Below, in pieces: positions 26,184 to 53,144 of a stretch of 64,000 bases of DNA. Source of the DNA: Bacteroidota bacterium (GTDB lineage Bacteria; Bacteroidota; Bacteroidia; Chitinophagales; Chitinophagaceae); contig JAKQKY010000362.1 of the NCBI GenBank assembly GCA_029560415.1, positions 27,703-91,702 of the forward strand, in the 5' to 3' direction. The notes beneath the pieces are model-generated. The model was not told the origin of the DNA. It searched no databases and saw only the letters and a program-made list of their open reading frames with translations. Each line of letters opens with the position of its first letter. The first letter of the stretch is position 1. Made by a program: the position numbers and the translations under genes.

Positions 26184-28808
26184 TTATAGGGTTGCCAGGC
26201 TCTCTTCTATCGCTTTGATCTTTGTTTCAGCATCAGCTTTTTTCTTTTGTTCCAGTTCCAGCACTTCCGGCCTTGCATTGGAAACAAATTTCTCATTGCC
26301 AAGTTTCTTTTCAACCGTTTGCAGAAATCCTTTAAGATGTGTAAGCTCTTTTTCCAGGTCGCTGCGCTGGTGACCGGTATCGATCGGTTGTTCTGTTTCA
26401 ATATAAAATTTATCCTTGCCGATCACCGTGGTGATACATCCCGCAACCGGTTCATTGGTATACTCAATTGATTTGGCATTGACCTGTTTGGCCAGGATAT
26501 TCTCAATATCGCGGTAAGTTGATTCAGTCTCCGTTTGAATATGGAGGCTGATCGTTTCCTTCGGCTTTATCTGTTGTTTATTGCGAACATCCCTAAGGCT
26601 GCTGATTACATCTTTTAAGAGATCTCCTTTTTGCAGGATGGATAGATTCGCCATACCAGCCTGGCTGTATGGTTTCACACAAAGATCATCCTGGCGTTCT
26701 TCCAGCAGATGATAAATCTCTTCTGAGATGAACGGCATGAAAGGGTGGAGGAGCTGCATGAGTTCAGTATAAAAAACAATTGTTTTTTGATAGGTGCCGG
26801 CTTCCATCGGTTGTTCAAATCCCGGTTTCACCCATTCGAGGTACCAGCTGCAGAAATCATCCCAGATCAGCGAATAGATCGTTTTCAAAGCTTCATTCAG
26901 CCTGAACTGTTGCATCATCGCAGCTACATCAACTTTTACCTGGTTGAGCCTGTTCCGGAACCATTCCGTGGCAAAGTCATTTGTCTTCGTATCTGCATCA
27001 CCGGTAGCAACCCTTGCTTCCCACATTTTTACCAGCTTCAGGGCATTCCACATTTTGTTATTAAAATTCCTTCCTTGTTCCAATGCACTTTCATCGAACA
27101 GGATGTCATTTCCTGCCGGTGAAGCGATCATAATACCAAAACGGGTTGCATCTGCACCATATTGGTCTATTAGTCCGAGCAGGTCGGGCGAATTGCCCAA
27201 ACTCTTACTCATTTTCCTGCCTTGTTTATCCCTTACAATGCCCGTGAAATAAACCGCATTGAATGGCTTTTCCTCCATGTATTCAAACCCTGCCATGATC
27301 ATACGGGCTACCCAGAAGAAAATGATCTCCGGGGCGGTCACCAGGGTATTGGTTGGATAGTAATATTTAATGTCTTTATTCCCAGGATCGCTATAGCCTT
27401 TGAATACTTCAAAAGGCCAGAGCCAGGAGGAGAACCAGGTATCCAGGCAATCTTCATCCTGTTTCAGCTGAAGGTTTTTTGTTTCGGGTTGCGCTTCATG
27501 AAGGGCCTCCAGGCTTTCCGACACGTACACGTTGCCGTTATCATCGTACCACGCAGGTATGCGATGGCCCCACCACAGTTGGCGGCTGATGCACCAGTCT
27601 TTGATGTTTTCCATCCAATGACGGTACAGGTTTTTGAATTTGGGCGGATAGAATTGTATCTCTTCATCCATCACCGACTTCAGTGCAGGCGAAGCAATGT
27701 CTTTCATGCTTACCCACCATTGCAGGCTGAGCCTGGGTTCTACAACGGCATCGGTGCGTTCGCTATATCCAACTTCACTGGTATAATCTTCTGTTTTTAG
27801 CAGGTAACCTTTCTCTTCAAGTTCTACAGCAATTTTTTTCCGGGCATCAAATCGGTCAAGTCCAACATAGATCTGCGCTTCCTCATTCAGGGTACCATCT
27901 TCATTAAAAATATCCACTACTTCCAGTCCGTGTTTTTGTCCAAGCTGGTTATCATTCATGTCATGGGCCGGGGTCACTTTCAGGGCACCGGTTCCAAACT
28001 CCATGGTCACGTATTCATCGGTAATGATGGGAATGCGTCTATTGATTAACGGTACCAGGGCAAATTTTCCATGCAGGTGTTTATATCGTTCATCATCGGG
28101 ATGCACGCAGATGGCTGTATCACCCATGATCGTCTCGGGGCGAACAGTTGCAATGGTCACATAACTTTCATTAGCGGTGCCTTCTGTGCCGTCAGCTATC
28201 GCATATTTCAGGAAATAGAGTTTTTGTTTGGTTTCTTTCCTGATCACTTCTTCATCACTCAGCGCAGTTAATGCCTTTACATCCCAGTTGATCATCCGCT
28301 TACCACGATAGATCACCCCTTTTTTATGCAGTTCTACAAAAACTTTTATTACGGAATCATAATAATCCTTGTCCATGGTGAAGCTCGTGCGGTTCCAGTC
28401 GAGGCTGAAGCCAAGCTTTTTCAATTGCTGCAGGATGATGCCACCATATTTTTCTTTCCATTCCCAGGCATACCCTAAAAATTCATCACGGGTAAGAGAC
28501 GATTTGGTGATGCCTCTTTCCCGGAGCATGGCAACCACCTTTGCTTCGGTGGCAATGGAAGCATGATCGGTACCAGGCACCCAGCATGCATTCTTACCCC
28601 TCATCCGGGCGTCGCGTATGAGGATATCCTGGATAGTATTGTTCAGGCAATGCCCCATGTGTAATACGCCCGTTACATTTGGTGGGGGCATTACAATCGT
28701 GTAAGGTTCCCGGTTATCGGGGGTACTGGAAAAATAATTTTTCTCCAACCAATGAGGATACCATTTATTTTCTATGGCCTGGGGCTCGAAATTTTTTGAA
28801 AGTTCCAT
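26184..28808 (-). CDS. valS: Valine--tRNA ligase
   Basis: MPPPNVTGVLHMGHCLNNTIQDILIRDARMRGKNACWVPGTDHASIATEAKV; GRKMSKSLGNSPDLLGLIDQYGADATRFG. Confidence 0.97.
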   Translation of the reverse strand: MELSKNFEPQAIENKWYPHWLEKNYFSSTPDNREPYTIVMPPPNVTGVLHMGHCLNNTIQDILIRDARMRGKNACWVPGTDHASIATEAKVVAMLRERGITKSSLTRDEFLGYAWEWKEKYGGIILQQLKKLGFSLDWNRTSFTMDKDYYDSVIKVFVELHKKGVIYRGKRMINWDVKALTALSDEEVIRKETKQKLYFLKYAIADGTEGTANESYVTIATVRPETIMGDTAICVHPDDERYKHLHGKFALVPLINRRIPIITDEYVTMEFGTGALKVTPAHDMNDNQLGQKHGLEVVDIFNEDGTLNEEAQIYVGLDRFDARKKIAVELEEKGYLLKTEDYTSEVGYSERTDAVVEPRLSLQWWVSMKDIASPALKSVMDEEIQFYPPKFKNLYRHWMENIKDWCISRQLWWGHRIPAWYDDNGNVYVSESLEALHEAQPETKNLQLKQDEDCLDTWFSSWLWPFEVFKGYSDPGNKDIKYYYPTNTLVTAPEIIFFWVARMIMAGFEYMEEKPFNAVYFTGIVRDKQGRKMSKSLGNSPDLLGLIDQYGADATRFGIMIASPAGNDILFDESALEQGRNFNNKMWNALKLVKMWEARVATGDADTKTNDFATEWFRNRLNQVKVDVAAMMQQFRLNEALKTIYSLIWDDFCSWYLEWVKPGFEQPMEAGTYQKTIVFYTELMQLLHPFMPFISEEIYHLLEERQDDLCVKPYSQAGMANLSILQKGDLLKDVISSLRDVRNKQQIKPKETISLHIQTETESTYRDIENILAKQVNAKSIEYTNEPVAGCITTVIGKDKFYIETEQPIDTGHQRSDLEKELTHLKGFLQTVEKKLGNEKFVSNARPEVLELEQKKKADAETKIKAIEESLATL

Positions 28809-29022
28809 TCGCTAAAAGCTTTTTACAAGTTTGCGAAGGTACAAAAATGCAGTTACTAACGGCCATGAGGGCCTTTTACCTTTAATTTTTAACTTGTTCA
28901 GGCTGAATGCTTTTGACGCATGCCCTGAACGGTTGGAAAATATCGTTAATAAAACTAATATTGCAGGGCTCTTTTGGGTTTCCCATATCATCAAGCCTGG
29001 ATACCCTGAGCGATATTGTCAG

Positions 29023-30228
29023 ATGAAATTGATTAAGCCTATCCCATTGTTGAATTGGAAAAACTGGTTGCAGCTTATGTTGCTGACCCTACTGCTTTTT
29101 TTTGCATTCCTTTTTTACAATAATGGCAATTTTGTTTTAGACGGAGAAGAAAGTCTGCTGACCAGGATGGATATCGGCCGGGAAATGCTCCTGCCCAAAA
29201 CCTACAAAGCGCCTTATCGTTTCATATTCATCAATGTGGGTAAAGATCTTCAACTTACAAAAGATGATTACGGAGCGGATAATGTGATTACCGACCGTGA
29301 AAAACTGGCGTCCTTTTTTCAACTGCTCAACAATCACAATAAGCATAAGTATCTGTTAGCAGACCTGGTGTTCGATCTGCCTGCAGACAATGACAGCCTG
29401 TTGGAAAAAGAATTGCCCCGGTTGCAAAAGGTTATTTTTCCGAAACACCTGGGCGATTCGGGACTTTTGCCTTCTGTCTTTTCAGTTCCTTCTGCCATCG
29501 CCGATTATAATACCAGCAATAAGAAATTCAGCAAGTTCAGGCTGATGTATGGTGATTCGCTGAAAACGTTGCCGGTGGCCATTCACGAAGCACTGGAGGG
29601 TGTAACATATAAGGTTAAACGCGGATCGTTGTATTGCAATGGTAAATATAACCTGCATACCATACCTCCCCGGTATTTTATCAGGCCCTACCAATTGCAG
29701 ACCGCAAAGCAGTATCCTTATTTCAACCTGGGTGATCTGCTGGTACTCGCCAACGATAGTACTTTTTATGACCAGTTCCTGGAAGACAGGTTCATTGTGC
29801 TTGGTAATTTTGATACTGATATTCATATAACTCCGATCGGGAAAATGCCAGGAGTGCTCATCCTGCTCAATACCTATCTTTCTTTGAAGGATGGCAGGGC
29901 TCAGCCCTCTATCGCCTGGTTCACCATGATTTTTGTAATTTTCTTTATCATAAACCTGTATGTATTTTTTGGTAAGAAACCTGAACCTAAAAAGACGGAT
30001 CATAAAACCTGGTGGCAATTGTTCATATATAACCTGTTGAATGGGATCCTTGCCAATTTTGTATCCATCGCCGGGTTATGCCTGATGATCACGATTCTTT
30101 CAGATTTTATTTTCCATATTAAGCCATATACATTTATTATATTTATGTATATTATAATATGGCAAGGCATTTTAAAATATTACCAGGTATGGAAAAAGCA
30201 ACAACAACCAGCGCAAAAGTCAGCCTGA
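29023..30228 (+). CDS. CHASE2-like membrane sensor protein without a recognisable cytoplasmic output domain
   Basis: N-terminal TM, extracytoplasmic FIFINVGKDL...LLADLVFDLPADNDSLLEKEL...FIVLGNFDTDIHITPIGKMPGVLILLNTYLSL, then 2-3 TM helices at the C-terminus. Start placed at the internal ATG. Confidence 0.7.
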   Translation: MKLIKPIPLLNWKNWLQLMLLTLLLFFAFLFYNNGNFVLDGEESLLTRMDIGREMLLPKTYKAPYRFIFINVGKDLQLTKDDYGADNVITDREKLASFFQLLNNHNKHKYLLADLVFDLPADNDSLLEKELPRLQKVIFPKHLGDSGLLPSVFSVPSAIADYNTSNKKFSKFRLMYGDSLKTLPVAIHEALEGVTYKVKRGSLYCNGKYNLHTIPPRYFIRPYQLQTAKQYPYFNLGDLLVLANDSTFYDQFLEDRFIVLGNFDTDIHITPIGKMPGVLILLNTYLSLKDGRAQPSIAWFTMIFVIFFIINLYVFFGKKPEPKKTDHKTWWQLFIYNLLNGILANFVSIAGLCLMITILSDFIFHIKPYTFIIFMYIIIWQGILKYYQVWKKQQQPAQKSA

Positions 30229-31016
30229 TCCTTTTTGTTGGTCTTTTTATCTGTTTCAGTTCCCTGGCCCAGGAGATCTATTTTGTAACACTGGTCAAAG
30301 GCGACATAAAGAAAAATAATGCAACAGCAGTTAAAGTGGGCGATAAGATTCCGTTCCAGGAAAAGCTTGTTTTTGCCAATAAGAACTGCAAAATGATCCT
30401 GCTTCATCCTCAAAAAGGACGTTTTGTGGTAGAGCCTGGAACCATTACACCCCAGGCGACCGGCGAATACTTTGTTTACCTGAAAAGCAGTCTCCATCTC
30501 AGCAATGAAAAATTAAAACTCAGTTCACGTGGGGACGCCGACCTGGATGAATTCTTTATCACTAATCCTTCTGTTAATAAGAACCTATTGTTTGTAGGTG
30601 ATACCAAGATCGCCCTGGATAATTCGAAGTACTTGATCAAAGACCCGGTAAATGATTTCTTTTTTCTTCAATACACACCGGCGAATGGCAAACCGATGAA
30701 TAAGAAACTCACGGTAACGCATGATAGCCTGTTGATCAGCCGGTCAGATTTTATGTTCAACGGCGCAGAACCTGCAGAAAATAGCGAAGTGAAAATAGGT
30801 TTCATGCAATACTATTCAACCGAGAAAAAGATGACCAGGATCGCTTCCTTTTCACCGGTATTCATGAGCATAGCAGATTGTAAAGCCATCATCGCAGCCA
30901 TTCAGCAAACCATTTCCGATAAGGATAAAGCTTTCGAAGAGGTGCTCACGCAGTTGTATTATAACTACGGCAAGCCAGATAAAGCGAGCATGAAATTGCT
31001 AAGCGAACAGCGTTGA
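30189..31016 (+). CDS. Secreted hypothetical protein, start overlaps the CHASE2-like gene
   Basis: Signal peptide LILFVGLFICFSSLAQE; overlaps the 3' end of the upstream gene by 40 nt. Confidence 0.7.
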   Translation: MEKATTTSAKVSLILFVGLFICFSSLAQEIYFVTLVKGDIKKNNATAVKVGDKIPFQEKLVFANKNCKMILLHPQKGRFVVEPGTITPQATGEYFVYLKSSLHLSNEKLKLSSRGDADLDEFFITNPSVNKNLLFVGDTKIALDNSKYLIKDPVNDFFFLQYTPANGKPMNKKLTVTHDSLLISRSDFMFNGAEPAENSEVKIGFMQYYSTEKKMTRIASFSPVFMSIADCKAIIAAIQQTISDKDKAFEEVLTQLYYNYGKPDKASMKLLSEQR

Positions 31017-31051
31017 CAGGATACCTGAATATTCTTCTAAAACATTTCCCC

Positions 31052-33250
31052 ATGCGAAAGTTTATTATCCTGATTCTCCTTTCTGGTTGTGTGATTCAAT
31101 ATGGCCAGGCTCAATCCAGGTTTACGGGTAATCTTCAAAAGGTTGTCAAAATCCAATTTCATAAAGGATCAAATTTTAAAGGCAGCTTTACCCAAACAGG
31201 CCAAACTGAATGGACACAAACCAATAACCTTGGCACAACTATTTTCCAGGAAACCAGTCGCAGCAATGGTAAAATATTTCTAAAGATCTCCGGCGTAGAA
31301 TATTATTTTGATTTAAATGAAATGCGGTGGTTCAAGATAATGGGTAACAGGTTGACCAGTTTCATTGCATACATCGACGGGATAGAAGAGGGCTCTATTG
31401 CCAACAATGCTAACATAGCCAATACATTTATCAAAGTGCCCGATAAAAATCCTGTAACGGTAAAAGACTTTACAGATCGGGCTAAATTATATGAAGAGCG
31501 GAGTGAACTTTCGTTGGCCATAAGGGATTACACTTCTGCCATCCAGATGTCTTCCGGTTGGGAATTGTTGATCAAAAGAGCTGGCCTGTATGAAAAAGCC
31601 GGTCAGATAGAGGATGCAAAGGAAGATTATGAAACAGCGGTGGATTTATACCCCAATGAGTTCACGTATACGAACCGTGGTATTTTTCGTTCAAACAATG
31701 GAATGCCGGAAGAAGCACTATCAGATTTTAAAAAAGCCCTTGAAATAATGCCCGGTGATTATTGGGCGATGGGTTATATCGTAATCCCTTATATACAACT
31801 TGGTGAATTTAATCTGGCAGCTGAATCTTTAACAAATTATAAAGCTAAGTTTGGAAGATCCATGTGGGGATCAGATTTTTATCGTTTTTTTACGATATAT
31901 CTCGAGGCTGTAGAATTTATTGCGATGAATAACTTTTATGCTGCAGAATTTAAAATTAAAGAAGCTGAGAAAACATACTTTGAACAACGTAATGCGGGTG
32001 GTTTCAAAGAAATCAGGGATGCACAAAAAATGCGGTATGCCGATATCCTTTCATTAAAAGGTTATATCTGTGAGCAGATGAAAAAACCTGATGAAGCCAA
32101 AAAATACTATACTCAATCACTGATCATCAATCCAACACAAACTAGCGTGAAGGCAGGTTTGAGCCGACTTGTAGATCTGCGAAAAAATCTGTCTGCAAAT
32201 GATCAAACTGCCCCCGAGATCAATATCCTGGAACCGGCAACAGAAAAAACGGTTAGCATTGAATCTGCCAATAAAGCCGGTTTTTTGCTTATAAGAGGCA
32301 AAGCGATAGACCAGGCAGGCATTAAAAAGATACTGATCAATAATATTCCTGTAAACGTAGAAGAGAATGGATATTTTGAGAAAAAAGTTGAATTAAAAAT
32401 CGGCAGCAACGACTTTTCGGTACTGGCAGAAGATAATAAGGGCAATAAGTCTTCGCAAAAAATAAACATCCAGGCAGTTGCAGCAAAAGTAAAACCTGAA
32501 GTGAAAGAAGATATTTCTCTGGATATACCTGAATTGGAACAAGATGCTGTTTTTCATGCTGTACTGATTGCAGAAAATGATTACCGGGATGATGAAATAC
32601 CCGATCTTAATGGCCCGGCAAAAGATATGCGCAGAATATATGCATTGCTAACGGAGACGTATACCTTTGATCCTAAGAATGTAGACACCTTTGTGAATGC
32701 TTCCCGCCAACAGATCCTGGAGAAGCTTATTATAAAAACAAACCAGTTGAAAGAGAAAGACAATCTCTTTATTTTTTACGCAGGGCATGGACAGCTTAAG
32801 AAAAAAGCTGATGCACCTGAATCAGGATTTTTGGTTCCCAGTGATGCAAAGTTTAATAAATTGGAAACCTATATCAGCAGTGAAGACCTTGTAAATACGA
32901 TTAAGAATTGCGATGCACAACATATCCTGTTTACAGCAGATGCCTGTTTTGCAGGAGCATTATTCCGAAGCCTGCCTTCTGATGCGCCAGACCAGGTGCA
33001 GGAAGCATACCGTGATAAAAGCCGCAAACTTCTGACCAGTGGTAACCGACAATCGGTACCCGATGAAAGTGATTTTATGAAATATTTCAGCAATGCACTT
33101 CATGGAAACCAAAAGCACTATGTTACGGCTGAGCAATTGGTTGATTCTTTTAAAAATGAATACAATTCTTCATCGCATCAACGCCTGCAATATAAACCGA
33201 TCCTGGGGTCTGATGAAGGTGGCGCTTTTGTATTTATTAAAAGAAAGTAA
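31052..33250 (+). CDS. Secreted TPR-repeat and caspase-fold (peptidase C14-like) protein
   Basis: Signal peptide; TPR-like region ~31480-32170; caspase core HAVLIAENDYRDDEIPDLNGPAKDMRRIY...FIFYAGHG (His codon 32786)...LFTADACFAG (Cys codon 32945). Confidence 0.88.
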   Translation: MRKFIILILLSGCVIQYGQAQSRFTGNLQKVVKIQFHKGSNFKGSFTQTGQTEWTQTNNLGTTIFQETSRSNGKIFLKISGVEYYFDLNEMRWFKIMGNRLTSFIAYIDGIEEGSIANNANIANTFIKVPDKNPVTVKDFTDRAKLYEERSELSLAIRDYTSAIQMSSGWELLIKRAGLYEKAGQIEDAKEDYETAVDLYPNEFTYTNRGIFRSNNGMPEEALSDFKKALEIMPGDYWAMGYIVIPYIQLGEFNLAAESLTNYKAKFGRSMWGSDFYRFFTIYLEAVEFIAMNNFYAAEFKIKEAEKTYFEQRNAGGFKEIRDAQKMRYADILSLKGYICEQMKKPDEAKKYYTQSLIINPTQTSVKAGLSRLVDLRKNLSANDQTAPEINILEPATEKTVSIESANKAGFLLIRGKAIDQAGIKKILINNIPVNVEENGYFEKKVELKIGSNDFSVLAEDNKGNKSSQKINIQAVAAKVKPEVKEDISLDIPELEQDAVFHAVLIAENDYRDDEIPDLNGPAKDMRRIYALLTETYTFDPKNVDTFVNASRQQILEKLIIKTNQLKEKDNLFIFYAGHGQLKKKADAPESGFLVPSDAKFNKLETYISSEDLVNTIKNCDAQHILFTADACFAGALFRSLPSDAPDQVQEAYRDKSRKLLTSGNRQSVPDESDFMKYFSNALHGNQKHYVTAEQLVDSFKNEYNSSSHQRLQYKPILGSDEGGAFVFIKRK

Positions 33251-33381
33251 AACTTGCTGATTCTGTAAATTATAGTTATCTTTTCTCTAATATGAAATGG
33301 GCTCTTGGCCTCTCTGCATATTTTATTTAAACAGAATACCGGGATCTCCTGAGAACTTATATAAAACATAAGTAGATCATT

Positions 33382-34641
33382 ATGCTTAAGAAAAGTATCG
33401 GCTGGCATTCAAGACTTATTTTAGTAATGCTGGCTACCATTTCCCTCCATGTATCGTATGCCCAGTTTACCATGCAGCAAAAAAAGCCACCGCCAACGTA
33501 TAAAGGCAACCTGGATGCGGTGGTTAGTGTTAAATATGGAGCCATTATGTTATCAAAGAAAGTAAAGGGGCAATTTTTGATGACCGGTGATCACGAATGG
33601 ACACAATATGGTGGAGACAGCAATGTTATCTGGCGGGAACTGGTTCGCAAAGACAATGGAATTTTACTGGTAGATAATACTGGCGAAAAACAGGTTGAAT
33701 TGGACCTGGCAGAGATGCAGGTGAACAAGGTCGGAAAAGGAAGTGGAACTTCCATCATGCACGGGATCAAGGAAGTGAAGGAAGGTGTTTTGCCGGGAGA
33801 GCAACCGAATACAGAAATGGCCAACCAACCAGGGACGGATATCAATAATCCTACTTCACCATCGTTCACACAAAGCCCGGTAAAAGAAGCAGAGATCATA
33901 CCGGATATCCCTGAGATGAAAGAAACCCCGGTATTTCATGCCATCCTCATTGCAGAAAATAATTATGCTGATAAAGGATTCAATAGCTTACCCGGTACGG
34001 TGAGGGATATGCGAAAATTGTATAACCTGCTTACCACGTCATATTCCTTTTTACCCGGGAATACCGATACACTGGTAAATGCCAGCCGGGAAAAGATTCT
34101 GAGCACGCTCAATGCCAAGACCAAGAAGTTGACTGAAAATGATAATCTCTTTATCTTTTATGCAGGGCATGGTTGGGTGAAGCCTATTGCGGATGCAGGC
34201 AGCAAGGAGGAAGGATTCCTGATTCCCTGTGATGCGGTAAAAGATGATGAGATCACCTTCATCAACAGCGATGACATTGTACGTATTCTTAACAGGGGAA
34301 GCAAGGCAAAACATATTTTATTTACTGCAGATGCCTGTTTTGCAGGTAGCCTTTTCCGTGATGTAACATCTGATGCGCCACTTACTGTAAAAGATGCCTA
34401 TAAGGATAAAAGCCGCCGTTTATTGTCGAGTGGTAACCGGCAAACCGTTCCCGATGAAAGTGAATTTGTAGCTAACCTGGAACGGGCCCTTCAACAAAAT
34501 CAATCAAAATACATCACTGCCGAACAGCTTGTAGATGGCTTTAAACAAAAGTATATGGAGAAAACAAATATGAGGTTACAGTATTATCCGATCCAGGGGG
34601 TTGGCGATATGGGTGGCCAGTTTGTATTTATTCATCAATAA
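33382..34641 (+). CDS. Secreted caspase-fold (peptidase C14-like) protein, paralog 2
   Basis: Signal peptide; HAILIAENNYADKGFNSLPGTVRDMRKLY; FIFYAGHGW (His codon 34168); LFTADACFAG (Cys codon 34336). Confidence 0.9.
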   Translation: MLKKSIGWHSRLILVMLATISLHVSYAQFTMQQKKPPPTYKGNLDAVVSVKYGAIMLSKKVKGQFLMTGDHEWTQYGGDSNVIWRELVRKDNGILLVDNTGEKQVELDLAEMQVNKVGKGSGTSIMHGIKEVKEGVLPGEQPNTEMANQPGTDINNPTSPSFTQSPVKEAEIIPDIPEMKETPVFHAILIAENNYADKGFNSLPGTVRDMRKLYNLLTTSYSFLPGNTDTLVNASREKILSTLNAKTKKLTENDNLFIFYAGHGWVKPIADAGSKEEGFLIPCDAVKDDEITFINSDDIVRILNRGSKAKHILFTADACFAGSLFRDVTSDAPLTVKDAYKDKSRRLLSSGNRQTVPDESEFVANLERALQQNQSKYITAEQLVDGFKQKYMEKTNMRLQYYPIQGVGDMGGQFVFIHQ

Positions 34642-34673
34642 TTCAATTCCAGGTATTCAATAAATATATTGTT

Positions 34674-35963
34674 ATGAGATCTCATTTATCATCCTTCATA
34701 AGTTTATTACTGTTGATCATTACTATCAACTACGGTTATGCGCAAACAGACCAGGAGCAACTTGATCAAAAGATGAAAGAATTTCAGGCAGCATTCGCAA
34801 ATGCCGGGAAATATACGGGTGTACAGGCAAGTGAAGTGATCAAGGTTACCTATACTTCCCGCAAGTTCAATGGAAACTTTACAAAAACAGGGCCCGGTAC
34901 CTGGATTGAAACCAACCCTGAAGGAGTTTTTAATCTCTATGAAACCAAACGCCAGGCAAGGGGTGAGATTTGCCTGGAAGATACGGCCCGAAATAAGAGA
35001 TATTATATTGATCTGAATAAACGGGAGATCAGCAGGAGCAAGATCGGGAAATTCGTTTCTCTTTCACTTGATTATTATATCAGCAAGATCCATAAAAGCA
35101 GCGACCAGGCAAATCCGGTAAATCCCGATACCAGGAACCTGGCACAGGATCCAAAACAGGCTACTCAAACAGCACCCGTGACATCGAAGCAGGATATGAT
35201 CAAAACAGGTAGCAATGAAACATTTGATATACCCGAACTGAATAAAGCTCCTGTGTATCATGCCATATTGATAGCTGAGAACAAGTATTCGGATAAGGCC
35301 TTCAATTCTTTGCCGGGCACCCTCCGGGATGTACGTAAATTATACAGCCTCCTTACAACACGCTATACATTTGAACCCAATAATACAGATACCCTGGTAA
35401 ATGCTTCGAGGGAAACGATCCTGAGTATACTCAATGCAAAAGCAAAATCCATGACTGAGAATGATAACCTGTTTATATTTTACGCGGGACATGGATGGGT
35501 AAAGCCTTATAATGACGGAAGCGGAAAAGAAGAAGGATTCCTGATTCCCTGCGATGCGGTAAAAGATGATGAAGTAACTTTTATCAACAGCGATGATATC
35601 ACCCGCATTTTTAACCGCGGTAGCAAGGCCCGGCATATTTTGTTTACGGCAGACGCCTGCTTTGCGGGTAGCCTTTTCCGTGATATTGCTGCGGATGCAC
35701 CTCTCACTGTGAAGGATGCATATAAGGAAAAAAGCCGCAAGCTGTTATCAAGTGGTAACCGGCAGGCTGTTTCTGATGAAAGTGATTTTGTAGAATACTT
35801 CAGGCTGGCCCTGCAGGAAAACAGGTCTAAATACATTACTGCGGAACAATTGGTCGATGGATTTAAAAAAGGTTATATGGAGAAGTCGAATATGTCATTG
35901 CAATATTATCCGATCCAGGGAGTGGGAGATATGGGCGGTCAGTTTGTATTCACCAGGCGATAA
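34674..35963 (+). CDS. Secreted caspase-fold (peptidase C14-like) protein, paralog 3
   Basis: Signal peptide; HAILIAENKYSDKAFNSLPGTLRDVRKLY; FIFYAGHGW (His codon 35490); LFTADACFAG (Cys codon 35658). Confidence 0.9.
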   Translation: MRSHLSSFISLLLLIITINYGYAQTDQEQLDQKMKEFQAAFANAGKYTGVQASEVIKVTYTSRKFNGNFTKTGPGTWIETNPEGVFNLYETKRQARGEICLEDTARNKRYYIDLNKREISRSKIGKFVSLSLDYYISKIHKSSDQANPVNPDTRNLAQDPKQATQTAPVTSKQDMIKTGSNETFDIPELNKAPVYHAILIAENKYSDKAFNSLPGTLRDVRKLYSLLTTRYTFEPNNTDTLVNASRETILSILNAKAKSMTENDNLFIFYAGHGWVKPYNDGSGKEEGFLIPCDAVKDDEVTFINSDDITRIFNRGSKARHILFTADACFAGSLFRDIAADAPLTVKDAYKEKSRKLLSSGNRQAVSDESDFVEYFRLALQENRSKYITAEQLVDGFKKGYMEKSNMSLQYYPIQGVGDMGGQFVFTRR

Positions 35964-35982
35964 AATATAGATTTATACAAAT

Positions 35983-36016
35983 AAAAAAATCCCCGTTAGA
36001 AGCGGGGATTTTTTTA
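35983..36016. terminator. Bidirectional terminator between the convergent caspase and tectonin genes
   Basis: aaaaaaatccccgttagaagcggggattttttt: A-tract, hairpin, T-tract. Confidence 0.9.
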
Positions 36017-36032
36017 TGTCAGCATTTATTCT

Positions 36033-37157
36033 TTAATTTTTTCCTGCAAAAATTTTTCCGGCTTCATTTACCACCCAGGCGTTCCCGTTAGGCGCTACGG
36101 AGATGTGGTTTGCCCCGCCGGGGACCTTATTCCAATCGCGGCCATTGAACTTGTAAATGCCATAACCGCCGCCTTCTTTATTGGTACCGATCACCCAGGC
36201 ACTGCCATCTGCTCCAACGCCAATATCCCTGGCGCCTCCAGGTAAATTGTGCCATTGCCCGGTATTTGTTCTTCTGAAAATACCACCCCCGTCATTCACT
36301 ACCCATGCCAGGCCATTGTTGTCAACGGCAATCCTGATGGCACCTCCATCGGTTTTTTGCCATCCGTTACCATTATACCTGAAAATTTCAAAGCCTCCAC
36401 CAACAGGGGTTGTTCCAATCACCCAAACGGTTCCATCGCTGCCGATGCCAATATCCCTTGCCAGGCCGCCAACTTCTTTCCATCCGTTTCCTTCCCTCCG
36501 GAATATCTGTCGTTTATCATTCAGCACCCATGGTGTACCGTTAGGATCAACCGCAATGCGAACGGCACCACCATCCACTGCATCCCAATTAGAACCGTTC
36601 CAGTGAAAAATGCCATATCCGCCATTAACCGAGTTGGTGCCGATAATCCAGACAGATCCATTAGCGCCGATTCCTATATCGGATGCAGCACCAGAAAGTT
36701 GACTCCATTGGAAGCCTGAAGATGATTGCTGCTGTTGGCCTTGGTCCTGGATGACTGGCTTTATCACCTGGTTATGTGGTTGCTCTGGCTCTTTTGCATA
36801 GTCAACAATATAAGCTTCTCTTCTGCCCCGGGAGTCTGTAGCGTAAATCTTTTTTTGGAATAAGTCAATCTGTACATTTACCTGCCTGGAATCATCTCTC
36901 AAATAGATACTCCATTCATCCCTGCTTTGTTCTGTATAATAATTTCTACCCTGGACTTTTGAGCTCACTATTGTATACATTTCTTTCCATTTATTCCCCC
37001 CAACCTGCATAAACAATCCTTCAATTTGTCTTCCAGGTGTATAACACCATACATTGGTGGCCCGGTAAGCTTTGATCTGTTCCTGGGCCATGCCCGATTG
37101 AATAATGCAGGTGATAAATACTATCACAAGCATAAGCCTGTTAATGTTTTTTTTCAT
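36033..37157 (-). CDS. Secreted tectonin-type beta-propeller protein
   Basis: Signal peptide; repeats such as GAASDIGIGANGSVWIIGTNSVNGGYGIFHWNGSNWDAVDGGAVRIAVDPNGTPWVLNDKRQIFRREGNGWKEV. Confidence 0.88.
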   Translation of the reverse strand: MKKNINRLMLVIVFITCIIQSGMAQEQIKAYRATNVWCYTPGRQIEGLFMQVGGNKWKEMYTIVSSKVQGRNYYTEQSRDEWSIYLRDDSRQVNVQIDLFQKKIYATDSRGRREAYIVDYAKEPEQPHNQVIKPVIQDQGQQQQSSSGFQWSQLSGAASDIGIGANGSVWIIGTNSVNGGYGIFHWNGSNWDAVDGGAVRIAVDPNGTPWVLNDKRQIFRREGNGWKEVGGLARDIGIGSDGTVWVIGTTPVGGGFEIFRYNGNGWQKTDGGAIRIAVDNNGLAWVVNDGGGIFRRTNTGQWHNLPGGARDIGVGADGSAWVIGTNKEGGGYGIYKFNGRDWNKVPGGANHISVAPNGNAWVVNEAGKIFAGKN

Positions 37158-37385
37158 ACAATGTTTTTAGTAAATGAATAATGTAGTTATTCATGGTGGG
37201 ATCGTTCGGCAATAAATATATTGTATTTTATATATACAAAAAATATTTATCTATTATTTAGTTTAATGCAAAAGGTCATCTATATTTTAAAAAAATAAAG
37301 ACTTATTGCTTTTAAACTAAATTAATTAGTAATTTTATCCAATGTTTTCTTCCAATACTCATTCAACTCATTAATTCATCTTTTC

Positions 37386-38738
37386 TTGTACGCCATAGTA
37401 GATATTGAAACAACAGGAGGCCATGCGGCCGGGAATGGGATCACCGAGATCGCCATATATGTGCATGATGGCACGAGGATTACCCGGCAATATAAAAGCC
37501 TGGTCAATCCAGGGCGAAGTATACCGCTTTACATTACGGCACTAACGGGAATTAATAACGCAATGGTGGCAAGCGCACCTGGGTTTGATGAAATTGCTCC
37601 GGAGATTCATGAGATACTCAGCAGCAATATATTCGTGGCACATAACGTGAACTTCGATTTTTCCTTTGTAAAACATTTCTTAAAGAATAGTGGCTTCGAT
37701 CTGAATGTAAAAAAACTTTGCACGGTCAGGCTTAGCCGAAAAGTTTTTCCGGGACTGCCTTCTTATAGTCTCGGCAACCTTTGCCGTAACCTGCAAATTG
37801 AAAATGAAAGCAGGCACAGGGCCGATGGGGATGCTAAAGCAACTGTTGCGTTGTTTGAAAAGATCCTGCAGCAAGGAGGAAACGAACACATTGATGCCAT
37901 GTTGAAAAAATCATCGGCAGAGCAATGGCTGCCACTGCACCTCGAGAAAAAGGAAATACAGAAATTGCCTCAAACACCTGGAGTATACTATTTTCATAAT
38001 GCAAGGGGACAGATCATCTATGTTGGAAAAGCGATCAACATAAGGAAGCGGGTAAGCAGCCACTTTACACATAATGATGCAGAGAAAAAACGGCAGCATT
38101 TTGTAAGACTGATACATAAGGTTACATATACAGTTTGTGCCAACGAATTACAGGCACTTGTATTGGAAAGCACGGAGATCAAAAGACTCTGGCCTAAATA
38201 CAATTACAGCCAGAAGCAACCGGCTCAAAAATTTGCCCTCTATTGTTTTGAAGACAACAGGGGTTACCTGCGCCTGGCCATTGATAAGAAGAAAAAAAAC
38301 ATCCCGGTACTTTACCAGTTTAATTTATTGCATGAAGGCATGGTGATGTTGCGTAAGATCATCGAGGAATTTGAACTTGATAATAAACTCTGTTATCTCG
38401 ATAAAACACCTATTACTGAAAAGGATCTTTCATTTTTGGATGCGCCACTTTATTATAATGGGAAAGTAAAAACGGCCCTGGAAGCACTCGAGCGTCAACT
38501 TCCTACTTTTGCCATTGTAGATGAGGGATTGACAAAAGATGAAAAATTATTCCTGTTAATTGAACGCGGGAGTTTTTGGGGCATGGGTTATTTGAATCAA
38601 CACGAAACCACCAACGATCTACATCAATTAAAGGATAAACTTCAACCTTTTGCAGATAATGATTTCATCCGCAACAGTATTTATTCTTTTGCCGAAACCT
38701 ATCCACATAAAAAAATGGAACTTGTTACTTCTAAGTAA
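37386..38738 (+). CDS. DnaQ-like exonuclease fused to a GIY-YIG (UvrC N-terminal/Cho-like) nuclease
   Basis: YAIVDIETTGG...FVAHNVNFDFSFVKHF...HRADGDAKATVALF, then LPQTPGVYYFHNARGQIIYVGKAINIRKRVSSHF; TTG start. Confidence 0.9.
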   Translation: MYAIVDIETTGGHAAGNGITEIAIYVHDGTRITRQYKSLVNPGRSIPLYITALTGINNAMVASAPGFDEIAPEIHEILSSNIFVAHNVNFDFSFVKHFLKNSGFDLNVKKLCTVRLSRKVFPGLPSYSLGNLCRNLQIENESRHRADGDAKATVALFEKILQQGGNEHIDAMLKKSSAEQWLPLHLEKKEIQKLPQTPGVYYFHNARGQIIYVGKAINIRKRVSSHFTHNDAEKKRQHFVRLIHKVTYTVCANELQALVLESTEIKRLWPKYNYSQKQPAQKFALYCFEDNRGYLRLAIDKKKKNIPVLYQFNLLHEGMVMLRKIIEEFELDNKLCYLDKTPITEKDLSFLDAPLYYNGKVKTALEALERQLPTFAIVDEGLTKDEKLFLLIERGSFWGMGYLNQHETTNDLHQLKDKLQPFADNDFIRNSIYSFAETYPHKKMELVTSK

Positions 38739-38740
38739 TA

Positions 38741-38850
38741 GGCTGTATCCTTAATCTTGTATACTGCATCCAGTATCCTGTATCCTGCATCCAGTATCCA
38801 GTATCCAGCATCCAGTTTTATCCTGCATCCCGTATCCTGCATCCTTCTTC
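38741..38850. repeat. Short-unit intergenic repeat (ctgcatccagtatcctgtatc type)
   Basis: Many imperfect repeats of gcatcc/gtatcc between the exonuclease gene and tex. Confidence 0.8.
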
Positions 38851-46308: not shown

Positions 46309-46544
46309 TGCTAGCCATAATCTCTATAGAAAATCCCCCCATTTACTCCATTTATTACTATCGGAACCCTGTTTTCTGACAAACCCTAATTTGTTCTGAA
46401 CAGCATCATTTAGATCCGAATTCGCTGGCTTTTATCATTTCATTGATTATTTAGTTCAGCTTCTTTATCCCGTTGATTATACCCCTTACACATTTGTCTA
46501 TTTAATTGAATTGTGGCTTTAGCCTATCATTTAAAACTAAGGGT

Positions 46545-49500
46545 ATGAAAACAAGTTTACCACTTTTAAAACTTCAAGGAGTCATTAACGGTAAAAATGT
46601 AGTGAAGAATGTTCTTGAAATAAAGAGAACATTACTGATGCAAACACGGCAGATCAAATTTATTTTGGTCATGTTGATTTTATTGACTGGTATGGGTAAC
46701 CAGGCAGAAGCCCAGTTAGGGAATCTTTGTTTTTCTGCAACTACGGGAACCTATACTTACCTCGGTGTTGGATCTACCGCCGTGAACGGTATTGAGCAGG
46801 ATGATAATAATGTAATCAACATTCCGATCGGGTTTACTTTTAATTATCTCGGTACCAATTTCACGACCGGGTCAGTAAGTTCAAACGGATGGTTTTCTTT
46901 TGCCAATACGGATCCTTCAAATGCAAATTCTAATTCGAACAATATTGCTGTAACCACTCCCAGTACTTTGCTCAGGACATTGTTCCCATTGTGGGACGAC
47001 CTGGATGGTGCCGGTGGAATCGCCAGTTACCAAACAACGGGCGCTGCCGGTAGTCGTGTATTTACCATGGAATGGAGAAACTGGCAGTGGAATTATAACT
47101 CCAGTGCTGCAATATCTTTCCAGGTAAAATTGTATGAAACTTCTAATATAATTGAATTCAGGTACAGGCAGGAAGCTGGTGCAGTAAATACATCCGGATC
47201 AGGATATTCTGTGGGAGCTTCTATCGGGTTAAACGACGCAACCGGTGGCAGTACCCATTTTCTTTCTTTAAATAATTCAGGTGCAGGCCCAACAGCCAGT
47301 ACTACAGTGGCTACGAATAATATCACCTCTAAACCTGCGACTAATCAAATATATCAGTTCACTCCGCAGGTAGCACCTACCATCTCTTTATCATCGGGTG
47401 CAGGAACAAATGTTCAAACTTTTTGTATTACAAATGCCCTCGGCAGCATTACCTATTCTGTAGGTGGCGGCGCAACAGGTGCTTCTGTTTCCGGCCTGCC
47501 GGCAGGAGTTACGGGTACTTACTCTGCGGGGGTGTTTACCATCAGTGGTACACCTACTGCTACAGGTATATTTAATTATACCGTAACAACTACGGGTACA
47601 TGTAATGCGGTGACAGCTACAGGTACCATTACGGTACAGGCTAATTCAACCATCAGCCTTAGTTCTGCTGCCGGTACAGCCAACCAAACAAAGTGTATCA
47701 ATACTGCGATCACAAACATCACATATTCTTTAGGTGGTGGTGCTACCGGCGCCACCGTAACTGGTTTGCCGACCGGCGTTAGCGGATCATATGCAGCGGG
47801 TGTTTATACAATCAGCGGGTCTGCTACACAAACCGGTGTATTCTCTTATACGGTTACCACAACAGGGCCTTGTACGAATACGTCAGCAAGTGGCAGTCTT
47901 ACAATTGATGAAGCTTCAACCATTTCGCTATCATCGGCTCCTGGTACTAATGTTCAGTCGTTTTGTATAGGAAGTACCTTAACTGATATTACTTATTCAA
48001 TCGGTGGAACAGCCACAGGTGCTTCTATTACTGCCGGTAGTTTGCCAACAGGTGTTACCGGTTCATACGACGGTATAGGAACCTTTACAATTAGCGGAAC
48101 TGCAACTTCAGCAGGTACATATAATTTTACGGTAACTGCAACGGGTACCTGCCCGGTATCTTTAACCGGAACAATAACGGTTACAAGTAACGCTACTCTT
48201 AATTTTACATCTGCAGTAGGTACAAATGCACAATCACGTTGTGTTAATACTGCCATTACCAATATTACATACCTTGTAGGTGGAAGCGGTACCGGCGCAA
48301 ACGTTTCTGGTTTGCCTGCTGGTGTTACCGGCTCTTACAATGGTGGTACAAAAGTGTTTACCATCAGTGGAACACCGACGGTTACAGGTCCATTTAGTTA
48401 TACGGTTACCACAACAGGACCTTGTGTTAATGCTTCATTGGGCGGAACCATCACAGTCAATCCTTTACCAGCTGTGTTTTCAGTAACAGGTGGTGGAGCT
48501 TATTGCTCAGGTGGTGTTGGTGTTCCGGTTGGTTTATCGGGCTCTGCAAGCGGTATTAATTACCAGTTGAAACTGGGTGCAGGAAATGTTGGTGCTCCTG
48601 TAGCAGGAACGGGTTCTGCAATCAGTTTTGGAAACCAAACTACTGCTGGTACATACACAGTGGTAGCTACAAATACTGTTACAACTTGTACCAGTACCAT
48701 GAGTGGAAGTGCAGTTGTTAGTATACATAGTTTGCCGCTTGCAAATGCCGGTGCAAACCAGGTGATCTGTGCAGCAGGTTCAACTATATTGGGAGCATTC
48801 CCGCCGGCTTCAGGTGGGGCAGGGTCTTATACTTATGTTTGGACAGGTTCTGGACTGAGTTCAACTAGTGCTGCCAACCCGGTTGCAACGCCAGCTTCAT
48901 TTCCTGCCAGTTATAGCCTGGTAGTTTCAGATGCAAATGGATGTAGCTCAGCTGCGTCTACTGCTACCGTTAGTGTAGGAACAGCAACCAAGAACTGGAT
49001 CGGAGATGGTACTGGTGGTGCTGGTCCGAACGCTGATTTTAATAATCCACAGAACTGGTCACCAGCCGGTGTTCCGGGAAGCTGTAATGATGTAAATATG
49101 AATTTAGACATCTCAAGTATTTTTGATTTTGGTGGAAGTACTGTGGTATCATCGCTTAGTGCTAATACTACAATCAAATCATTGAATATACAGATTAGTG
49201 GTTTCCTGTTCTTAAGTGGTGGATCAAATTTCAGGCTTGATGCAGGTACAAGAACATTGACTGTTTTAAACAATACAATTCTGAATGCAGATGCAACTTC
49301 ATTTTTTGCAGTACCTGCCCGTGCATATATCAGCGTTGGCAATGGAGGTACAGTAGTTTACGGAGGTAATCTTACAACTACAGTCAGCAATGGCTGTACG
49401 GTGTATCCTTTTTATGCAACCACCAACAATACGGGTAAATTTTATGTAAATGCAAATGCAACGCTGGGTGGGGTAGGTAACGATTTTGGAAATAAACCTG

Positions 49501-52500
49501 CACAGGTTATCTTCAACGGAACCGGTACACAAACCCTTACTCAGAATTCTGGTACACAAACCATCTTCCTTGGAGTAACGTCAACCGATATAGGTGAAAC
49601 CAATTCACCTACGGTTGTAATGACCGGTGCAGGAACAGGTGGTTTCAGGAACCAGGGTAACCTAAACGTATATACGAACGCTACTTTGGATATCGGCAGC
49701 CAGGTTTTCAACAGGAATAACGCTGGTGGTAGTCTTAACCTGAGTGCAGGTTCATTCATGAAACTGGGTAAGATCAGCGGAGGTGTAGCAGCAAGTAATT
49801 TCCCGTTGAACTATACAACATATAATTTCAATGCTACCAGTACGGTAGAATATAACGCAACAGCGCCAAACCAAACAGTGGTTTCAACACCTCTTTACGG
49901 TCATTTAACGCTTAGCAATGCAGGAAACAAGAATGCCAATGGTAATATTAATGTACAGAAAAACATTACCATTCAAAGTTCGGCCATCTTCACCGGAAGT
50001 ACTTATACTATTTCATTGGGTGGAAACTGGACAAACTACGGCCAGCTCGGTTTCCTTGAACAAACCAGCTCAGTTGATTTTACCGGAGCTACTGCTCAGT
50101 CAATCAATACCACCGGTGGCGAAATTTTTTACAACCTGAGAAAATCAGGTGCGGGAACAACAACGTTATTATCTGACGCAGCTGTTCAGGGTGCAGGAAC
50201 ACCTTCTTTTACTTTGTCTGCAGGTACATTTGATGCGGGTACACGTACTTTTAACAGTACAACAGGAGCCTTAAATATTTCGGCAGGATTACTTAAACTG
50301 GCAAAATTAAATGCCGTACTTCCTGAGTTTGCCATTGCTACTTATAATATCACTGGCGGATCAATTGAATTATACGGAAATGGTAACCAGCAATTCCGTG
50401 GTGGACGTGCTTACAGGGATTTGTTTTTCAGCAATACAGGTAATAAAACGGTAACAGCTGATGTGCCTTCTATTACAGGTACCATTACCATTTCAAATAC
50501 GGCTGTTTTAGATGCGGATGTTTATACGGTTGGTGGTGCAGGAACAAATCTCACCATGACAGATTTGTCAACTTATAAAACGGCAGGTACCGGTACAAGG
50601 CCGGATGTGTTGGGTGTGTATACTTTGGGAACAGGAACTACCCTGGAATTCAGTAACAACTCACCACTATTCACACAAGATGTCCGCTTAGGATTACCAC
50701 AATTTTATCATATTGCTGTTTCAGGATCTAATGTGGCTAATCCCGATCCTGCTGTTGGTATTCAAATTCAGGCAGGTGGAAGTTTCACTGTTAAGAACGG
50801 TGGTATTTTCAAAGTTGGAAATGCAGATGGTTTTGCAGGATCAACTACAACCGCAATTGACAACTCAACCAATCCATCCATCATATTGGAAGATGGTTCT
50901 ACCATTGAGTATTTTGGCGGAGCGGCTGGTACAACTCCACAAACAATTTCAAATACAATGCCTTATAAAGGGTTTGCCCTTTCTGGTTCTTCTGTTAAAA
51001 CAGCACCTTCCGGCACACTCAGCATTCAAGGTGATTTTACAAATCATAGCAGTGTGTTTGCACACAATAACGGAACAGTATTGCTTAATGGAACTAGCCT
51101 GCAGCATTATATTTCAACAGGTACTCCATTACAGTTTTACAAGTTAACTGCCGATAACCCTGTGAATGTGCAGGTAGACAATGACCTGGTTGTACTTAAG
51201 GAATTTTCTTTGGGCACAGCAGGTAAAGTAAACATGGCAACTGGCCACATAACCCTGAAATCTGATGTTAACAGCACCGCCAGGGTTGCTACGATCAATA
51301 CAACAGATGCACTTACTTATGGTACTGGTGGATTTATCATCGAAAGATATATTGCTGCCGGAACTACCGTTGGACATCATTCAAAATCATGGCAGTTACT
51401 ATCGGTACCGGTTAATGGCACACAAACTATTAAAGCAGCATGGCAGGAAAGTGCGGCTTCACCAAATGCCAACCCGGTTCCAGGATATGGTACACAGATC
51501 ACCAGTAACGCTGGTGGAAATGCAGCTGCTTCTGCTGCGCTTGGTTTTGATGTGTATACGCCTGCCGGACCAACTGTAAAAACATACAATGCTTCAACCA
51601 ATAATTGGGATGGAATAGGCAGCACCAATTCAACCAGCATTGCTAACCCTAAGGGATACATGGTGTTTGTGAGGGGCGACAGGGGTGTTACTGCATTTAA
51701 CCAGTTACCTCAGCCTACAACATTACGCACAACAGGTAAGCTTTATGCACCAAGTTCTTTGGCTGCAATTGCGCCCCCGGTGATCAATGTGTTGCCAGGT
51801 AAATTTGAAACGATTGGTAATCCTTATGCTTCTGCGATTGATTTTACCATGATCAATAAACCCGCTGCACCAGCAGTTGATGATAAGTTTTATGTATGGG
51901 ATCCGTTACTTACAGCTAATTACAACGGACTCGGCGGATATCAAACAATCAGTGCTGTGAATGGATGGAAGCCTATCCCGGGCGGTACTGCAAACTATGA
52001 TGCGAATGTAGCCAGTACGATCATTCAATCAGGCCAGGCATTCTTCGTGTATGCGTCTGGTGCAGGTGGTGCAGTGACTTTTACGGAAGCAGCCAAAGTA
52101 ACAAATGATGCAATGGTTTTCCGCCAGAACAATTTGAATGGTAATAACAGTTACCTGCGGTTGAATCTTTTCAATGCGGCTTCTGATTCAGCTAAATTAT
52201 CTGATGGTAATGTTGTTGCTTTCGGAGAAGGGTATAGCAATACCGTAGATGCAGATGACGCTCTAAAAATTGCGAATACAAATGAAAACTTCGGCATCGG
52301 AAGGTCGGGTAAATACCTGGCACTTGAAGCTAAAAGCCCGGTGATGTCTACAGATACAGTTTTTTACCAGTTTTATAATTTGAAAAAACAAACATATCGT
52401 TTACAGTTTAAACCGGAAAATATGCATGCCACAGGTATGACAGCATTCCTGGTTGATAAGTTCGCGGGAACCTCTACAGTGCTGAGCCTGGAAACGGTAT

Positions 52501-53144
52501 CTAATGTTAATTTTACCATTACAACTGATGTTGCGTCTTCCATGGCAGACAGGTTCTATGTTGTTTTCAAAGCATTGGCACCAGTACCGGTTACATTCAC
52601 CGGAATTACCGCAAACCGCCAGGATGATCAATCGATCCGTGTAAACTGGAAAGTTGATAATGAAATCAGCATGCAGCAATTTGAAGTGGAAAGAAGTGCA
52701 GATGGAAGGAATTTTACCAAACTGCATACAGCTCAGCCCTTAAACAATAACGGGGGATCTGCTACTTATACTCATGTTGATGTGAAACCAATTTCAGGAG
52801 ATAATTTTTACAGGATCAAAGCTTTGAGCATCGGTGGACGTATCCAATATAGCTCTATTGCTAAAGTTAGCGCTGTAAAAACGGGAAAAGATATCAGCGT
52901 ATACCCTAACCCGGTAGTTGACAAATCAGTTCATGTTTATTTCCGTAACCAGGAAGAAGGAACTTACGCTGTTCAACTTACCAACAAACTGGGCCAGGTT
53001 GTTTACAATGGCCAGGTGCAGGTTAGCGGAACCCTGGTGCATAAGGTTATCGCATTAGGAAAAGCCGTGAGCAGTGGTCAGTATCAACTTACCATTACTG
53101 CACAAAATGGTGCCAGGACCATTCAAAAACTGGTCATTGAATAA
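46545..53144 (+). CDS. Large T9SS-secreted surface protein/adhesin with Ig-like repeats
   Basis: About 2,200 aa; signal peptide [17 protein letters not shown]; four Ig-like repeats 47379-48470; C-terminal [37 protein letters not shown]. Start placed at the internal ATG. Confidence 0.88.
47379..48470 (+). repeat. Four coding tandem Ig-like repeats (about 90-92 aa)
   Basis: Unit starts at 47379, 47649, 47919 and 48195; consensus TISLSSAxGTNxQxxCINTAITxITYSxGGGATGAxVxGLPxGVTGSY. Confidence 0.85.

Follow-up and report, generated by a model that had tools for sequence, protein, structure and literature searches.

Organisation of the cassette and its insertion site

Six consecutive genes (P0001 to P0006) lie between positions 29023 and 37157 of the window, i.e., the whole stretch of 64,000 nucleotides that was analysed. 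They encode a CHASE2-type membrane protein, a small secreted protein, three exported caspases and, on the opposite strand, an exported tectonin-type protein. A preliminary description of this DNA had placed the same six genes around a two-way terminator facing the tectonin gene, and this arrangement was recovered at every position. The features are the following:

26184–28808, minus strand: valS (identity read from sequence)
28809–37385, no strand: whole cassette between valS and the exonuclease gene (empty site in relatives)
29023–30228, plus strand: P0001, CHASE2-type membrane protein (below the Pfam threshold itself, homologue above cut-off; hydropathy)
30189–31016, plus strand: P0002, small secreted protein of an unnamed family (no credible profile match; homologues beside CHASE2 elsewhere)
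31052–33250, plus strand: P0003, export signal, shared N-terminal domain, TPR, Glucodextran_B-like domain and C-terminal caspase (profiles, motifs)
31112–31420, plus strand: shared N-terminal domain, P0003 copy (alignments)
33382–34641, plus strand: P0004, export signal, shared N-terminal domain and caspase domain, PF00656 (profiles, motifs)
33457–33780, plus strand: shared N-terminal domain, P0004 copy (alignments)
34674–35963, plus strand: P0005, export signal, shared N-terminal domain and caspase domain, PF00656 (profiles, motifs)
34740–35100, plus strand: shared N-terminal domain, P0005 copy (alignments, AlphaFold model)
about 35981–36017, no strand: two-way intrinsic terminator (hairpin) separating P0005 from the tectonin gene (folding energy)
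36033–37157, minus strand: P0006, export signal, shared N-terminal domain and Tectonin propeller (PF19193, 5fsb, six repeats by eye)
36780–37085, minus strand: shared N-terminal domain, tectonin copy (profile of the three caspase copies)
37386–38738, plus strand: exonuclease/GIY-YIG-type gene (identity read from sequence)

The P0001 and P0002 genes overlap by 40 bp, and the next three genes follow after gaps of 35 bp (P0002–P0003), 131 bp (P0003–P0004) and 32 bp (P0004–P0005). The hairpin behind P0005 is perfect (-21.4 kcal/mol, z -5.8) and parts two convergent transcription units. Of the flanking genes, valS and the exonuclease/GIY-YIG-type gene were identified by reading their sequences, not by profile matches; here they stand 8.6 kb apart. 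The same two genes are direct, divergent neighbours in two genomes of the same genus (138 bp apart in G410, 111 bp in G414) and in a genome of the same family (130 bp in G180). Since no more than 111–138 bp separate them in these relatives, the six genes occupy one insertion site. All six genes form one cassette, whose boundaries were absent from the preliminary description. In G375 (locus L149), the same position is taken by a gene of the CotH family, in which a type IX sorting tail is weakly recognised, so the valS–exonuclease spot may be an insertion hotspot.

No integrase or transposase was found among the six genes. The ends of the cassette show no direct repeats longer than 8 bp, and its GC content does not shift; plasmid matches were not obtained for P0001 or for the tectonin N-terminal domain. 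A Bacteroidota promoter pattern matches the window twice, at chance level and both times outside the cassette. The cassette is absent from 8 other genomes of the genus and from nearly all of the family (4–5 of 198 genomes have it). The source assembly consists of 515 contigs with an estimated contamination of 7.3%, which calls for caution with genome-wide statements. Further along the window, a short degenerate tandem repeat (ATCCTGCATCCAGT-like, 38752–38850) lies ahead of a 740-aa gene at 38891, and an open reading frame of 2212 aa spans 46506–53144.

The CHASE2-type protein and its small secreted partner

P0001 scores 20.4 bits against the Pfam CHASE2 model (PF05226), below the cut-off of 26.3, while its homologue in locus L033 reaches 41.3 bits against the same model, and five of the eight members of the P0001 alignment match CHASE2 at E ≤ 0.01 (best E 1.8e-10). 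The hydropathy profile of P0001 has peaks at residues 13–34, 292–320, 337–367, and 362–380, from which we predict an extracytoplasmic CHASE2 region preceded by one membrane helix and followed by about three; this arrangement, with peaks before and after the domain, fits CHASE2 receptor proteins. No cytoplasmic output domain (kinase, cyclase or similar) was recognised with Pfam or NCBIfam, and the tail past the last helix is short. Therefore, any signal handled by P0001 must either be confined to the envelope or be passed on through contact between proteins.

P0002 has no credible match in Pfam or NCBIfam. It is predicted to be beta-rich with a helical C-terminus, and comparison of its AlphaFold model (pLDDT 78.8) with the PDB gave no convincing match. 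Homologues of P0002 adjoin CHASE2 genes in other genera. By eye the protein looked FecR-like (PF04773); this reading was rejected, as none of 13 family members matches FecR, a six-frame FecR search of the genome returns a different gene only, and profile comparison of P0002 with the one FecR sequence of the genome yields a probability of 0.1%.

Three exported caspases and a tectonin protein with a common N-terminal domain

The caspase domains of P0004 and P0005 match PF00656 above cut-off (E 4e-13 and 3e-13, respectively). P0003 has no listed match to this model; it is recognised by the caspase models of NCBIfam (1e-18) and PADLOC (1e-10) and, in the caspase alignment, shares 42% identity with P0005. 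A profile built from the cassette caspases retrieves solved metacaspases with an E of 3e-12, in agreement with the caspase fold (C14) on which the preliminary description depended. That description had also ascribed signal peptides and intact FIFYAGHG and TADACFAG motifs to the caspases, and both were confirmed: each of the three proteins begins with a hydrophobic export signal, as called by hydropathy and by eye, and each retains the two motifs and hence the His-Cys dyad. Metacaspases are expected to keep an Asp two residues before the Cys, and this residue (DAC) is kept in the cassette caspases. Judged by profile and dyad, the assignment of P0003–P0005 to peptidase C14/orthocaspases is sound. 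Against the EACC1-associated caspase model NF047832 they score 57–68 bits, well under the cut-off of 140. P0003 contains a possible lipobox (LSGC) and may therefore be a lipoprotein; its Glucodextran_B-like domain had escaped the preliminary description. Profile searches for the type IX Por_Secre_tail gave no match in P0003–P0006.

P0006 matches PF19193 with an E of 1.7e-23 (83.7 bits, cut-off 30) and the solved structure of Tectonin 2 (5fsb) with an E of 2.5e-17; six propeller repeats can be read by eye. Behind the signal peptide, the sequences of the three caspases and of the tectonin protein have in common an all-beta domain of ~90 residues, which the preliminary description had missed. Indeed, the top non-self match of a profile made from the three caspase N-termini is the tectonin protein (E 0.008), whose score of 15.9 bits compares with at most 10.7 bits in 2000 shuffles. 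The AlphaFold model of the P0005 copy is all-beta, with nine strands (pLDDT 75), and a fold search with it found no convincing match, the best being a periplasmic lysozyme inhibitor (E 0.17). The domain occurs in three other genomes of the family, in one case at the C-terminus of a TIR-domain protein (L138:961–1764). A secreted protein of locus L137 (G166) bears about three copies. Neither this domain nor the tectonin gene was found in other CHASE2 loci.

Recurrence of the CHASE2–protease neighbourhood

The recurrence of the neighbourhood was probed with the CHASE2 protein or its alignments as query, that is, blind to the caspases. These searches led to 14 further genomes, in 10 of which an exported caspase or CHAT gene adjoins the CHASE2 gene. 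In eight of these the protease is a Pfam match within 5 kb of CHASE2, where gene density predicts 0.19 (P about 7e-13); of the remaining two, the protease of G570 was recognised with the caspase profile built in this work and that of G478 from its motifs. Some of the linked proteases are CHAT proteins; the caspases among them begin with WD40, propeller, TPR or other regions. Export signals are present throughout and, by simple patterns, active-site motifs in nearly all: the search detected no Cys pattern in L082 and no His pattern in the CHAT proteins of L033 and L055. P0002 homologues stand beside CHASE2 in 8 of the 14 genomes. In four others (L052–L055) this position is taken by a small secreted protein for which homology to P0002 could not be shown. 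In two genomes (G041 and G340, loci L018 and L035) the CHASE2/P0002 pair has no protease close by. CHASE2 stands by itself in G603, and its frame is interrupted by a stop in G370.

Named genomes were scanned with the caspase alignment, the eight-member CHASE2 alignment being too diverse. All three core genes were also found in L065 and L082, and L063 (Flavihumibacter soli R14) has homologues of CHASE2 and P0002 behind a row of six caspase genes. Overall, the recurrence in distant genera of the linkage between CHASE2 and protease genes, which the preliminary description had needed for its proposal, is borne out, and the gene association of CHASE2, P0002 and protease is well supported at the level of sequence.

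Seen from the caspase side, a CHASE2 gene is present in only 4 of 80 caspase loci, all of them in Bacteroidota. The nearest caspases (L056 and L057, about 60% identical) adjoin a papain-type protease, not CHASE2, and in many Bacteroidota relatives the caspase is paired with such a protease instead of CHASE2. An exported papain-type protease accompanies the same type of caspase in L056, L057, L058, L062, L064, L065, L066, L075, L077, and L078; the one scanned, in L065, consists of C1 plus DUF4384. In L019 (L019/L105 fusion), one polypeptide combines a related protease with a P0002-like domain. In L016, a Tle1-like phospholipase gene (L016:13610–14725) comes after the CHASE2, caspase and P0002 genes. 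Finally, related caspases of Gammaproteobacteria and others (L088–L135) are often near apparent Ser/Thr kinases, lipoprotein hydrolases and large surface proteins, in neighbourhoods that do not contain this type of CHASE2.

A possible mechanism and its alternatives

The cassette points to an undescribed protease system working outside the cytoplasm, and related sets of genes recur in distant bacteria. The preliminary description had interpreted the genes as a single envelope module in which the CHASE2 protein senses a signal and controls the caspases. The one cassette, the recurring CHASE2–protease linkage and the export signals and mostly recognisable active sites of the proteases support the single module; the CHASE2 protein may sense a signal and control the caspases. 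From the anatomy of the locus and the gene association we infer signal, contacts, substrates and outcome as follows. P0001 would be anchored in the inner membrane, exposing its CHASE2 region to the outside and offering no enzymatic output to the cytoplasm, and would pair with P0002 to sense or restrain. The caspases would stand ready in the periplasm or on the surface of the envelope. Through the shared beta domain, they and the tectonin lectin may be docked to one and the same partner or glycan. Upon an envelope signal, such as damage or a foreign or modified glycan, the caspases would be released or activated and would cut proteins of the envelope; by analogy with other orthocaspases, the cuts would probably follow Arg or Lys. 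In this simplest scheme, sensing and proteolysis would both be kept at the outer face of the inner membrane.

Our preferred reading, to which we assign a probability of about 45%, sees in the cassette a transferable caspase system outside the cytoplasm, with the CHASE2/P0002 unit sensing or restraining the proteases, possibly in conflict or self-destruction, which the accessory and scattered distribution favours over housekeeping. It is consistent with the empty sites, the CHASE2–protease linkage, the row of six caspases in L063, the export signals, the catalytic motifs kept by nearly all the proteases, the shared domain and the CHASE2–caspase fusion of Trichodesmium described below. Against it count the loose link seen from the caspase side, the CHASE2/P0002 pairs of L018 and L035, the failure to find the tectonin gene and the shared domain in the other CHASE2 loci, and the predicted cytoplasmic location of the Trichodesmium caspase. 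A bolder version, which we consider unlikely, makes the cassette an immune or self-destruction system wholly outside the cytoplasm, in which the output-less CHASE2 protein gates the exported caspases and the domain-sharing lectin recognises glycans, as a periplasmic counterpart of sensor–caspase immunity.

Alternatively, the CHASE2/P0002 unit could monitor the cell's own envelope, whose proteins the caspases would trim or degrade in ordinary stress response or quality control, with no role in conflict or death. A CHASE2 protein with a periplasmic FecR/LysM protein is indeed known from a Burkholderia operon linked with the control of biofilms (PMC5192318), and TPR and propeller scaffolds would suit regulated proteolysis; however, the absence of the cassette from 8 other genomes of its genus and from nearly all of its family, together with an array of paralogous caspases and a lectin that are unusual for housekeeping, makes this possible but on balance doubtful. 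It is also conceivable, if rather improbable, that both proteases and lectin are released from the cell and act on neighbouring microbes or matrix, guided by the tectonin protein to O-methylated or other glycans. The propeller is close to fungal Tectonin 2, whose described targets are O-methylated mannose and fucose (PMC4539729), lectin and proteases have the N-terminal domain in common, and locus L016 adds the Tle1-like lipase gene; yet no type IX secretion tail is listed on any of the six proteins, and the membrane-bound CHASE2 partner would be left with no clear task. Finally, unrelated genes might have gathered at a hotspot between valS and the exonuclease gene, as the CotH gene of G375 and the convergent tectonin gene, not seen in related loci, could suggest. 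Such a chance gathering is very improbable given that CHASE2, P0002 and caspase-fold genes are linked at other genomic sites as well, far beyond expectation, and that the tectonin protein has a domain in common with the caspases.

Bacterial caspases have been studied mainly as cytoplasmic effectors, and we know of no reported ligand for CHASE2. If the preferred reading of an extracytoplasmic caspase system is true, a module of exported caspase or CHAT proteins and an output-less CHASE2 protein places caspase signalling in the envelope; CHASE2 gains a testable partner, and its signal becomes reachable from outside the cell.

Relation to known systems

No precedent for an output-less CHASE2 protein with exported caspases emerged from the literature searched, which covers few subscription journals, so that an earlier description may exist; searches for CHASE2 with caspase and FecR, for CHASE2 with CHAT and for Chitinophagaceae metacaspases found none either. 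In its catalytic fold, His and Cys motifs and TPR or WD40 partners the cassette resembles bacterial orthocaspases and metacaspases (C14); unlike others, its caspases are exported, arrayed and accompanied by a shared N-terminal beta domain and the CHASE2/P0002 pair. A caspase-type protease is likewise linked to a CHASE2 receptor in Trichodesmium erythraeum, there in one chain, with the caspase predicted to be cytoplasmic and CHASE2 outside (PMC3501461), whereas the cassette caspases are separate and exported and the CHASE2 protein has no attached effector. TPR-CHAT of Craspase (PMC9935389) also combines TPR with a caspase fold, and such a protein replaces the caspase in L033 and L034, as a CHAT protein does in L055; unlike in Craspase, these proteins are exported, and their loci showed no link to CRISPR.

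The 'BiofilmReg' operon of Burkholderia and Pseudomonas, which joins FecR/LysM to a CHASE2 histidine kinase (PMC5192318), likewise encodes an exported small protein beside a CHASE2 membrane protein. There, however, CHASE2 drives a kinase and response regulator, neither of which is among the six cassette genes, and P0002 is not detectably FecR. In the EACC/TRADD-N conflict systems, a constant component is joined to one of several sensor domains, CHASE2 among them (PMC8195603). The use of caspase effectors and of CHASE2 as a sensor option is similar, but those systems operate with adaptor domains and NTPases inside the cell, and profile searches revealed no such adaptor domain, EACC1 partner or intracellular NTPase among the six genes. 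Since the cassette lacks the defining features of BiofilmReg and of EACC/TRADD-N, and none of the systems in the literature searched joins an output-less CHASE2 protein to exported caspases, we regard it as a variant of caspase-linked signalling rather than a member of either.
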